Positions 4,253 through 7,191 of a stretch of 20,175 nucleotides of DNA are shown here, one piece after another. Each line of letters starts with the position of its first letter. Within the stretch, counting starts at the first letter, position 1. Source of the stretch: a virus. The stretch is taken from positions 1 through 20,175 of the IMG/VR virus record IMGVR_UViG_3300018426_000214. One strand, given 5' to 3'. The notes under the pieces were generated by a model. The model was not told the DNA's origin. It made no database searches and worked only from the letters and a program-made list of their open reading frames with translations. The translations under genes and the position numbers were made by a program.

Positions 4253-5992
4253 ATGGAAACCTATGGACCAACACTAGGAATCTCACAAGAGATTCACGCC
4301 ATGAAATATCGCAGCCACGGGGAAACTTTTCGTGAAGCAATGACACGTGTAGCAGAAGCATTGAAGGATGGAGAAGCACACTTCAATAACTTCCGAACTA
4401 TCCTGTATGAACAACGGTTCCTACCTGCAGGACGTGTGCAGTCAGCAATGGGTGCACCTCGTCGTGTAACACCATACAACTGCTTTGTCTCAATGACTAT
4501 AGAAGATTCAATGGACGGTATCATGGAAGCTGCTCGTCGTGCAGCAGAGACAATGCGCCTTGGCGGGGGTATCGGATACGACTTCAGTACACTACGTCCA
4601 CGTGGCACACTAATCAAGTCGTTGGACAGTAAGTCATCTGGCCCAGTGTCATTCATGGGTATCTTTGACGCAGTATGTAAGACTATTGCATCTGCAGGGC
4701 ATAGACGTGGAGCACAGATGGGGGTGCTACGTGTTGATCACCCAGACATTGAAGAGTTCATCACGGCTAAGAACAACAGTGATACACTGACACAGTTCAA
4801 TATCTCTGTGGGTGTCACGGACGAGTTCATGACTGCAGTAAAAGAAGACAAAGATTTTGACCTACAGTTTGACGGACGTGTGTACAAAACTGTGAGTGCT
4901 CGTGCTCTATGGGATCAGATACTACGCAGTACATGGGACTGGGCAGAGCCTGGGATTCTATTCATTGATCGTATCAATAAGAAGAACAACCTTCATTACG
5001 TAGAAAAGATTGCAGCCACAAACCCATGTGGAGAGCAGCCACTTCCACCAAACGGTGCATGTTTGTTGGGGTCATTCAACTTAGCTAAGTACGTAATAGA
5101 ACATGAAGGTAAGTACGTATTCAATATGAATCAACTACGTAATGACATTCCTCATGTGGTACGTGCAATGGATAACGTTGTAGATCGTGCAACCTATCCA
5201 CTGCTAGAACAAGAGACAGAGGCAAAGAGCAAACGCCGTATGGGTCTTGGTGTTACAGGTGTAGCCAATGCTATTGAGGCATTAGGATTTGAGTATGGTA
5301 GTGATAGGTTTCTGCAGACTCTTGAAGAAATCATGGGAGTAATTAGGGATGTGGCATATACTACGTCAGTTGAGCTTGCACTTGAGAAAGGTCCGTTTCC
5401 TCTCTTTAGTCAGGCATACCTTGGTTCTGATTTTGCTAAGTCTTTGCCTGATAATATTCGTGATCTCATTAGCAAGCACGGTATCCGTAACAGTCATCTT
5501 CTTTCGGTTGCTCCAACAGGAACTATCAGCTTGTCAGCCGACAACGTATCCTCTGGAATCGAGCCTGTCTTCTCACATTACTACGACAGAACTATCCAAA
5601 CCTTCGATGGACCCAAGGTTGAACGAGTAGAGGACTACGGCTATCGTGTGTTTGGTGTGAAGGGTAAGACTGCAGATGAACTGTCTGTGTTTGATCACGT
5701 TAAAGTATTGAACGTTGCCTCTCGTTACGTTGACTCAGCATGTTCAAAGACATGTAACACAGGTGACGATGTAACATGGGAAGAGTTTAAGAAAGTGTAC
5801 ATGGATGCATACGATGGTGGTGCATCAGGGTGTACAACCTTCCGTGCTGCAGGTAAACGTTATGGCATTCTAAATGCATCCAACTCTGAGGATGTTGCAG
5901 AAGAACCAGTAGTAGAGGAAACGCAAGACTACGTAGAAGAAGGGGGTGCTTGCTACTATGATCCTGCAACTGGCTTACGTCAGTGTGAGTAG
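4253..5992 (+). CDS. nrdJ: Class II (adenosylcobalamin-dependent) ribonucleotide reductase
   Basis: A 579-residue single-subunit reductase converting ribonucleotides to deoxyribonucleotides for phage DNA synthesis. Active-site residues are visible: Cys77 in TPYNCFV and Cys270 in [10 protein letters not shown] form the expected redox pair, and NPCGE (Asn257, Cys259, Glu261) carries the thiyl-radical cysteine. The 11-residue step from Cys259 to Cys270 matches C408/C419 of the Lactobacillus leichmannii enzyme. Other family blocks are [36 protein letters not shown] and [10 protein letters not shown]. There is no N-terminal ATP-cone and no NrdB gene in the window, which together with sequence style supports class II. 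The enzyme would need B12 from the host. The C-terminus has an acidic linker and then Cys567 and Cys578, presumably shuttling electrons to the active site. Overlaps the DUF1289 gene. Confidence 0.93.
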
Positions 5993-6182
5993 GAACAGAG
6001 GAAAGAAACTGGGCACTGTCCCATCACCCTGCGTGAAAGTCTGTCGGATAGACACTGATGGCTTTTGCGTGGGGTGTAAAAGAACCATTGACGAGATACG
6101 TGAATGGTGTATAATGTCGGAGTACGAACAACAGAAACTTTTATTTGAACTATTGTGGAGGAAAGATAATGGGAACACGTAA
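5985..6182 (+). CDS. DUF1289 family cysteine-rich small protein
   Basis: About 65 residues with the full DUF1289 signature: SPCVKVCRIDTDGFCVGCKRT then EIREWCIM. Four cysteines (16, 20, 28 and 31 from the GTG at 5985) are spaced C-x3-C-x7-C-x2-C and probably bind a metal or Fe-S cluster. DUF1289 proteins are common in Alpha- and Gammaproteobacteria and have no settled function. The frame stays open upstream to 5946 (GTG) and holds an ATG at 5958; I chose the GTG at 5985 because it keeps the overlap with nrdJ to eight bases, but no strong ribosome binding site decides between them. The 3' end overlaps the next gene by 14 bases. Confidence 0.8.
   Translation: MSRNRGKKLGTVPSPCVKVCRIDTDGFCVGCKRTIDEIREWCIMSEYEQQKLLFELLWRKDNGNT
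6088..6115 (+). promoter_or_regulatory. Possible sigma70-type promoter inside the DUF1289 gene
   Basis: TTGACG at 6088-6093, a 16-base spacer, and a perfect TATAAT at 6110-6115, about 55 bases before the ATG at 6169. It would add transcripts for the last three genes of the + strand arm. It lies in coding sequence, so chance is a real alternative. Confidence 0.3.
6157..6162 (+). promoter_or_regulatory. Ribosome binding site fixing the start of the 148-residue gene
   Basis: GGAGGA six bases before ATG 6169. It places the start at 6169 and not at the upstream in-frame codon at 6145, which lies before this site. Confidence 0.7.
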
Positions 6183-6615
6183 ACAATTTAGCCGTGCTCT
6201 ATATGAAGCATACGATGGACCAGCAAAAGAAAAGCTGGTTGAGTATCTCAAGAGTGCAGGGCATGAGATAGAAAATACAGAGGAGAATTACTATGTGGAT
6301 ATTGTATCAAAGAAAAAAGATTATACATACTTTAATGAAGCTGAAGTAAAACTGGCATGGAAAGAAGAATGGCCTACACACTGGACAGACATTCGTATTC
6401 CTGAACGTAAAGGTAGATTGCTTGAGAAATATGAGGGGGAGAATGGAGTGCTAAACTTCTACATCTTCCGTAAAGATATGAAGCAAGCTTGGCGTATCAA
6501 GGATACAAGCCTGACACAGGATCGTCTACGTGAAGCACATGGACGTAACATCCTGAAGGGTGAACTGTTCTATCACATACCATACACAGAAGCAGAACTA
6601 ATCAACGTAGCATAA
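6169..6615 (+). CDS. Hypothetical protein with possible PD-(D/E)XK-like core
   Basis: A 148-residue protein of unknown function. The start at 6169 is set by the GGAGGA site; the open frame begins at 6145 without such support. Asp44 in YYVDIVSKK and Glu59-Val-Lys61 in NEAEVKLAW are spaced and placed (on predicted beta strands after an N-terminal helix) as the D...(D/E)xK core of a restriction-like nuclease fold, followed by basic stretches such as RIPERKGRLLEK. The second half has a strand NFYIFRKD and ends acidic (PYTEAELINVA). This match is weak and by eye only. It lies between the DUF1289 gene and an RMF-like gene, overlapping the former by 14 bases. Confidence 0.75.
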   Translation: MGTRKQFSRALYEAYDGPAKEKLVEYLKSAGHEIENTEENYYVDIVSKKKDYTYFNEAEVKLAWKEEWPTHWTDIRIPERKGRLLEKYEGENGVLNFYIFRKDMKQAWRIKDTSLTQDRLREAHGRNILKGELFYHIPYTEAELINVA

Positions 6616-6619
6616 GGAG
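6614..6619 (+). promoter_or_regulatory. Ribosome binding site deciding the start of the RMF-like gene
   Basis: AAGGAG lies one base from the ATG at 6621 but seven bases from the in-frame ATG at 6627, so 6627 is the better start. It overlaps the stop codon of the gene before. Confidence 0.65.
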
Positions 6620-6626
6620 AATGCAT

Positions 6627-6851
6627 ATGAACAAACAACTAACTCGCAAACAACGTGGCCTTGGCAAGTATGATGCACCGTTAAAATTTCAACACGAGAA
6701 AGGCTATAAAGATTTTCGACATGGACGTGTCGTTAATCCATTTCCTAGTGATACCATGCAGTACAGGGAGTGGGAACGTGGGTTTAATAAAGCCTACTAT
6801 GAGCAGTTGAAACGGGTGAAGGAGTATGAACAAGCTACAGGACGAGGCTAG
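6627..6851 (+). CDS. Small basic protein resembling ribosome modulation factor (RMF/CrpP-like)
   Basis: A 74-residue basic protein. Residues about 26-57 read HEKGYKDFRHGR, VVNPFPSD, YREWERGFNKAYYEQ. The order and spacing of GY, GR nine residues on, a proline-containing turn (NPFP where E. coli RMF has CPY), W, and a final G-aromatic step match E. coli RMF. RMF binds 30S subunits and drives formation of hibernating 100S ribosomes; short phage and plasmid proteins of the related CrpP group share the pattern without proven ribosome binding. The basic N-terminus (NKQLTRKQRG) would suit RNA contact. Function is inference; identity in the aligned part is low. The 3' end overlaps MazG by 26 bases. 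Confidence 0.6.
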   Translation: MNKQLTRKQRGLGKYDAPLKFQHEKGYKDFRHGRVVNPFPSDTMQYREWERGFNKAYYEQLKRVKEYEQATGRG

Positions 6852-7191
6852 AGCATTCATGGAAAGCAAGTATGAGAATATAAACTTCAGGTCATATCAA
6901 GACATGGCATCAGAAACTGCGATCTATAAATCAGAGCATCAAGTAATCTACCCTGCACTAGGATTGGCAGCAGAAGCAGGTGAGGTTGCCAACAAAGTCA
7001 AAAAGATTTTACGTGATGGTAAGTTTGATCGTGAGGCAATTGCAGATGAAGTTGGTGACTGTCTCTGGTATATTGCTGCACTTTGTCGTGATCTAAATGT
7101 AGACATGGCAGAGTTAGCAAAAGGTAACTTGCGAAAGTTACATGACCGAAAGGTAAGGGGTGTCATTTCAGGGAGTGGTGACAAGCGGTAA
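6826..7191 (+). CDS. mazG: MazG-like nucleotide pyrophosphohydrolase
   Basis: A 121-residue all-alpha NTP-PPase. The metal-binding pattern is intact: E50-AG-E53 in LAAEAGEVANKVKK, then E75-VG-D78 in DEVGDCLWYIAAL, followed by NLRKLHDRKVRG. Enzymes of this family hydrolyse (d)NTPs to monophosphates; marine phage forms have been proposed to adjust ppGpp levels or to recycle host nucleotides, but in vitro work favours dGTP/dCTP-type substrates. Position after nrdJ fits nucleotide management. The ATG at 6826 has GAAGGAG immediately upstream; an in-frame ATG at 6859 would remove only 11 residues and leaves the catalytic domain whole. It is the last gene of the + strand arm and ends at the shared terminator. 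Confidence 0.9.
   Translation: MNKLQDEARAFMESKYENINFRSYQDMASETAIYKSEHQVIYPALGLAAEAGEVANKVKKILRDGKFDREAIADEVGDCLWYIAALCRDLNVDMAELAKGNLRKLHDRKVRGVISGSGDKR

Follow-up and report, generated by a model that had tools for sequence, protein, structure and literature searches.

Small Proteins of HMO-2011-Type Marine Podoviruses Probably Form a Phage Branch within the Rmf/CrpP Superfamily

Does a phage protein that resembles ribosome modulation factor (RMF) also act as one? This question is raised by a reading frame of 74 codons and a stop in the window, by which we mean the whole stretch of DNA that was analysed, a 20,175-base virus record in IMG/VR. The frame lies on the plus strand, exactly where a sequence-only reading had placed it (Table 1). 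A fragment of the DNA polymerase encoded in the window is 97.3% identical to that of Roseobacter phage CRP-1 and 70.8% identical to that of Puniceispirillum phage HMO-2011, and we therefore assign the window to an HMO-2011-type podovirus. No tRNA genes were found in the window.

Table 1. Positions in the window of the gene for the 74-residue protein, its parts and its neighbours
Feature	Position	Strand	Basis or remark
nrdJ-like ribonucleotide reductase, upstream neighbour	4253..5992	+	PF02867, E 3.4e-111
Gene for a 148-residue protein, upstream neighbour	6169..6615	+	in 75 of 80 group A loci
AGGAG, probable Shine-Dalgarno (SD) sequence of the gene	6615..6619	+	7 nt before ATG 6627; sequence
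Alternative in-frame ATG (76 residues), unlikely start	6621..6623	+	1 nt behind the SD sequence; not kept in all relatives
CDS of the 74-residue protein, Rmf/CrpP fold predicted	6627..6851	+	stop included; selection, conservation of start and SD sequence, predicted fold
Predicted helix 1 (residues 19-32), with G26 and F30; G33 next	6681..6722	+	AlphaFold model
Predicted linker (residues 33-43), P38 at the place of RMF P30	6723..6755	+	model and profile alignment
Predicted helix 2 (residues 44-71), with E48-W49-x-R51-G52-F53 and Y57	6756..6839	+	model
Overlap of the CDS end with the mazG start, 26 nt	6826..6851	+	ORF positions
mazG-like nucleotide pyrophosphohydrolase, downstream neighbour	6826..7191	+	PF03819, E 9.8e-9

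Judged by its relatives, the reading frame is genuine: it is a gene conserved among HMO-2011-type marine podoviruses and evolves under purifying selection. Its ATG is the assigned start in all 79 testable relatives of group A, and GGAG stands upstream of the start in 78 of them. The ATG at 6621 is an unlikely start because AGGAG ends 1 nt before it, as against 7 nt before the ATG at 6627. The Nei-Gojobori method gave a median dN/dS of 0.14 for 54 codons in 57 unique sequences, calculated from the 857 pairs whose pS lies between 0.1 and 0.65. With the single protein as a query, viral contigs gave 96 pattern matches, of which tblastn confirmed 93 as relatives. Three small alignments as queries led to confirmation at 152 of 174, at least 588 of the 599 listed and at least 465 of the 599 listed pattern matches, and 80 loci were kept from each of these searches. 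The HMO-2011-type subfamily is thereby represented in IMG/VR by at least 588 stretches. In bacterial genome contigs, one of 24 pattern matches was confirmed, in a Rhodobiaceae MAG.

Among 11 HMO-2011-type isolates found via their polymerase, six carry the gene, and these infect Rhodobacteraceae and Puniceispirillum. For CRP-2, CRP-603, CRP-207, CRP-738 and HTVC033P, the family HMM gave no match within the searched stretch of 17-18 kb, which is part of each genome. The homologue is listed as "hypothetical" in the records of CRP-1, CRP-345 and HMO-2011. An unannotated record of Pseudomonas phage Ep020 (Otagovirus) holds a 44-residue Rmf/CrpP-like ORF (L086:2001-2132).

Taken singly, the 74-residue protein matches existing models poorly. 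It scores 15.4 bits (E 0.02) against the Pfam RMF family (PF04957) and 15.2 bits in a genome-level search, both below the cut-off of 27.9. The NCBIfam models, including NF041886, NF041887 and NF041856, gave no match at E ≤ 10, and the PHROG matches are weak. When 20 family members were searched, 15 matched Pfam RMF at E ≤ 0.1 (best 1.3e-5), and at the same threshold eight matched NF041886 (Rmf/CrpP), two RMF, one the CrpP-related NF041856 and one NF041887 (Rmf_like_phage, E 0.016). A profile of these 20 members, searched against all PDB sequences, returned RMF as the top two of 18 matches (E 0.011 and 0.014), followed by the FRB of mTOR (0.15). Conversely, E. coli RMF gave no tblastn match at E ≤ 0.01 in the phage collection, so the phages of that collection contain no close copy of RMF.

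An HMM of canonical RMFs scored single family members at 11.8 bits at best, compared with 10-11 bits for some unrelated ORFs and shuffles and 113.7 bits for E. coli rmf; in the reverse test, 12 of the 31 RMFs scored higher with the family HMM than the best control did. Because the former comparison is too weak, we used profile-profile tests. With hhalign, the 78-row family profile aligned to 31 canonical RMFs (30 from a phylum-wide draw of bacterial genomes plus that of E. coli) over 47 columns with a score of 24.0 (probability 54%, E 1.3e-4), whereas 300 column-shuffled RMF profiles averaged 9.5 with a maximum of 17.2, and reversed profiles gave 6.4. Against 23 bacterial Rmf/CrpP-like proteins the score was 43.4 (probability 96.2%, E 2.4e-9), compared with a mean of 8.6 and a maximum of 14.9 for 200 column-shuffled decoys; the domain limits of some of these proteins were set by our own family HMM or by an ANPY string, which makes this comparison slightly circular. 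The 23 proteins are PF04957 matches in bacterial genomes (26 loci, L362-L387, of which L363 and L367 were set aside and L362 yielded no row) and reach 98.3% against RMF. Since the profile scores lie above all decoys, homology to the Rmf/CrpP superfamily is well supported, with the family standing closer to the Rmf/CrpP-like proteins than to RMF itself. The profile search against RMF and CrpP that had been proposed as a check of the sequence-only reading thus returns similarity above background, both among PDB sequences and in hhalign against either set. Applied to the other ORFs of the fetched loci, 26,975 in all, a regular expression for the full motif finds E. coli rmf alone and leaves the remaining 26,974 unmatched. 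It does match 73 of the 207 unique proteins of the family and 24 of the 31 RMFs. As it was composed with both proteins known, it is no independent test; the proper tests are the comparisons of profiles and structures.

An AlphaFold model of the 74-residue protein, based on 78 sequences, predicts two helices (pLDDT 88.9, pTM 0.71; Table 1). In a Foldseek search of the PDB, this model ranks E. coli RMF in the hibernating ribosome first (9iot_y, probability 0.85, E 0.75) and Vibrio RMF second (2jrm, probability 0.72, E 2.2), with the remainder at or below 0.12. A further model, made for L109, a relative of the CRP-3 type (39 sequences, pLDDT 91.3), likewise ranks RMF first, with E-values above 0.5 for both models. 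Structural alignment with VIA gave Z values of 6.1 (50 residues, 2.9 Å) and 5.8 (56 residues, 3.1 Å) for RMFs against the first model, the next structure reaching 3.8. The CRP-3-type model aligned with RMF chains at Z 7.7, 7.1 and 6.5, the best being ribosome-bound RMF over 52 residues at 2.3 Å, and with the next unrelated structure at 3.6; all these RMF values lie below 8, a range that, by the guidance of the tool, may reflect a common arrangement. The alignments covered 43 and 63 pre-ranked chains, respectively, so the absence of other structures from the lists proves nothing. We therefore base the predicted fold on the agreement of the two models with each other and with the sequence profiles, rather than on single Z values. 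On this basis the structure prediction bears out the earlier expectation of a two-helix RMF fold, with solved RMFs on top for two branches of the family. Among predicted viral proteins, a single match lies below E 0.001 (A0A6J5NBQ0, 7.8e-4); further down the list, some entries bear the name ribosome modulation factor.

Profiles and models together make it very probable that the gene represents a phage branch of the Rmf/CrpP superfamily, encoding a small, basic protein of two predicted helices that combines the RMF scaffold with a conserved surface of its own. The basic N-terminus noticed earlier is confirmed (+5 in residues 1-25), the protein carries +8 overall with a calculated pI of 9.9, and net charge is positive in 200 of 207 unique relatives.

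How much of RMF this branch retains can be judged from the residues that are fully conserved in RMF and were mutated in a study of the E. coli protein (PMC8126665, as far as its accessible text goes). The scaffold is kept: G16, G23, P30, W40, G43 and the aromatic residue 44 (W44) of RMF correspond to G26, G33, P38, W49, G52 and F53, and in the 78 rows of the profile alignment these positions are conserved in 78, 74, 60, 78, 78 and 78 rows, respectively. The glycines and tryptophans of RMF are described as sitting between the helices (PMC8126665). The claim that the RMF landmarks occur in the same order and spacing stands for the order (G26-Y27, G33-R34, P38, W49, G52-F53) and for the identical G-to-G and W-G-aromatic distances, but the distance from G to P is two residues shorter and that from P to W one residue longer. 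The "GR after nine residues" was miscounted: five residues separate GY and GR here, as in E. coli RMF.

The residues R3, K5, R11, C29 and R45 of RMF are not kept; they align with G13, Y15, F21, N37 and N54 and are replaced nearly throughout the family. The R45 column contains N in 66, D in 11 and T in one of 78 rows, the A12 column contains Q in 64 and A in 11, and the G20 column is F in 78 of 78. According to the mutational data accessible in PMC8126665, each of the exchanges R3A, K5A, R11A and C29A in E. coli RMF left no detected dimers, R45A left faint dimers, and C29A alone abolished binding; R3 and K5 lie at helix 28 of 16S rRNA and R45 at C1536 of the anti-SD sequence. Thus, the scaffold is retained and the known rRNA-facing residues are not. 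By its sequence, the 74-residue protein is without the residues that canonical RMF uses for rRNA contact, binding and dimerisation, and it is not a canonical RMF. The resemblance seen by the sequence-only reading consequently holds for profile and predicted fold but does not extend to the functional residues, and its step from "RMF-like" to the tuning of host ribosomes is not borne out by the sequence, since the residues needed for dimerisation (C29 also for binding) are replaced. The family has invariants that RMF does not share (F30, E48 and R51) next to common ones (G26, W49 and G52). Its conserved surface comprises KYDAPLKIQ (a stretch running up to and into the beginning of helix 1), F30, E48-W49-x-R51-G52, N54 and Y57. 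In HMO-2011 (L083:4004-4240) and its close relatives, about 11 extra residues are inserted into the interhelix linker, near the place of the C29-P30 turn of RMF.

The gene order in the window is nrdJ-like reductase, gene for the 148-residue protein, the gene discussed here and mazG, with a 1209-codon gene on the opposite strand beyond. The overlap with mazG makes translational coupling possible. The argument once drawn from the position beside nrdJ and MazG is weak: both neighbours are indeed in the window, but in Roseobacter phages CRP-3, CRP-212 and CRP-235 unannotated homologues of 61-64 residues lie directly 3' of nrdJ (L087:2968-3150, L088:2986-3177, L089:2959-3144) with mazG located elsewhere, and the nrdJ adjoining the family gene is of two very different types. 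We therefore reject a fixed partnership with either gene.

The reductases merit a remark of their own. NrdJ of the window (579 aa; 4253-5992) and NrdJ of CRP-1 (637 aa; L082:1259-3172) align over only 78 residues with 26% identity, so that close relatives, with polymerases 97% identical, carry dissimilar reductases at one and the same position. The window-type NrdJ was detected in 43 of the 80 group A loci. Between nrdJ and the gene for the 148-residue protein, the window encodes a DUF1289 protein (5946-6182; PF06945, E 8e-17), which mostly accompanies the window-type NrdJ: in the 80 loci, both are found in 35, NrdJ alone in eight, DUF1289 alone in four and neither in 33.

Do the hosts of these phages have an RMF of their own? 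Our counts refer to the probable host class, that of the Rhodobiaceae MAG that bears a relative (Alphaproteobacteria by its title). In this class PF04957 exceeds its cut-off in one of 190 genomes (six of 190 at E ≤ 0.001), compared with 53 of 299 in the phylum-wide draw. The dimerisation domain of long HPF (PF16321) exceeds its cut-off in 126 of the 190 genomes, the completeness of which is not given. The accessible part of a review states that RMF is confined, as far as reported, to species whose HPF is of the short form (PMC6746590). Since the host class is nearly devoid of RMF, the phage protein probably works in cells without RMF, and a recent acquisition of the gene from a host rmf is improbable.

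What may the protein do in such cells? To judge from its fold and charge, it most likely binds the 30S subunit of the host or some other structured RNA. Once bound, it would act as a monomeric wedge that alters or dampens host translation during infection. It would form no 100S dimers, because R45, the anti-SD contact needed for dimerisation by RMF, is N or D here, and because the probable hosts make 100S particles by means of long HPF and not RMF. For this reading as a whole, a branch of the Rmf/CrpP fold that binds ribosomes or RNA without dimerisation, we estimate a probability of about 0.45. It is weakened by the loss of the contact residues known from RMF and by the fact that many basic two-helix proteins bind no ribosome. 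A strong block of the anti-SD sequence can be argued against since the phage itself uses SD-led starts: SD-like motifs precede 15 of 22 genes in the window and 12 of 21 genes in a stretch of CRP-2 without the 74-codon gene, and they occur in 7% of random 15-mers, although these counts are too few for a conclusion. A serious contender is that the Rmf/CrpP scaffold now serves to bind a protein and not the ribosome, for example to inhibit a host or defence protein or to assist NrdJ and MazG, the enzymes of nucleotide metabolism encoded nearby. The retained scaffold with lost RMF functions and a new invariant signature (F30, E48, R51) is consistent with this role, as are the accessory nature of the gene among the isolates and its overlap with mazG; the displaced mazG of the three CRP phages and the unlike nrdJ types beside the same gene speak against it. 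We judge this repurposing and the binding of ribosomes or RNA without dimerisation to be nearly level, the latter slightly ahead.

Two other explanations carry far less weight. From the predicted fold, the order of the landmarks and the basic charge one could expect a working RMF that pairs ribosomes of the host to form 100S particles, and a hibernation factor, HPF, is known in phages (PMC6375957, in the part accessible). However, the protein differs from RMF at all five places where mutation left no or faint dimers in E. coli, and the host class combines scarce RMF with frequent long HPF, which makes this function very improbable. Even less credible is a chance resemblance of an unrelated short helical hairpin such as P63C (PF10546). 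The 74-residue protein does match P63C slightly better than RMF (17.4 bits, E 0.0068, cut-off 26.1), and eight of the 20 members match it as well (best 0.0021). This match covers 23 positions of a 93-position profile and only one helix, RMF matches more members with better E-values, RMF heads the structural matches of the AlphaFold models for two branches, and the hhalign scores exceed all 300 and all 200 decoys. We therefore rejected P63C as the identity of the protein.

If ribosome binding without dimerisation is indeed its role, one may speculate further, though this is an unlikely version, that the protein serves HMO-2011-type phages as a translation-takeover factor. It would sit with its RMF fold on the 30S platform near the 3' end of 16S rRNA in hosts without RMF, and would favour initiation on phage messages over those of the host, or keep ribosomes idle without dimers, by way of a new contact surface that includes KYDAPLKIQ, E48 and R51. 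The accessible part of PMC9038755 calls HMO-2011-type phages dominant in the ocean and speaks of their broad distribution there. The searched text of two papers on these phages does not mention ribosomes, and the literature searched contains no link of HMO-2011 to ribosome modulation. Should the protein be directed at ribosomes, a conserved RMF-fold gene found in six of 11 isolates, in hundreds of environmental contigs and in an RMF-poor host class would offer a direct handle on how HMO-2011-type phages steer translation. The family further points to the Rmf scaffold as a small-protein chassis in general use among mobile elements, so that a phage protein labelled "ribosome modulation factor" should not be assumed to have that function.

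Among known systems, RMF itself (PF04957; NF011162; PDB 9iot, 6h4n, 4v8g, 2jrm) shares with the phage protein two helices and a linker, the scaffold residues and a basic character with a pI of about 10. It differs in its N-terminal MKRQKRD, which is KYDAPLKIQ in the phage protein, in R3, K5, R11, A12, G20, C29 and R45, which are G, Y, F, Q, F, N and N, and in E48 and R51, which are invariant in the phage family only. The Rmf/CrpP proteins (NF041886; CrpP-related NF041856) are closest by profile and share an NPY/SPY linker, W..G-aromatic and the absence of R45; eight of 20 members match NF041886, whereas the 74-residue protein itself matches none of these models at E ≤ 10. CrpP is reportedly a ciprofloxacin-modifying enzyme, and this report is disputed. 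HPF belongs to a protein family unrelated to RMF and binds elsewhere on the 30S subunit. The HPF genes of rv5-like phages are likewise phage genes bearing the name of a hibernation factor, but the list accessible in PMC6375957 contains only large genomes. The Rmf-like phage proteins (NF041887) are phage-borne, small and of the same fold or family name: two RMF-domain proteins are described for Agrobacterium phage Milano (PMC6588377, accessible part), and the name "Ribosome modulation factor" is given to BFVD entries from Caulobacter phage CcrBL9 and Myoviridae sp. ctu2j3. In contrast, one of 20 members of the family described here matches NF041887, and the HMO-2011-type subfamily is separate and numerous. 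RMF and Rmf-like proteins of phages were thus already known; what is new is the recognition of a large, distinct and so far unnamed subfamily in HMO-2011-type phages.
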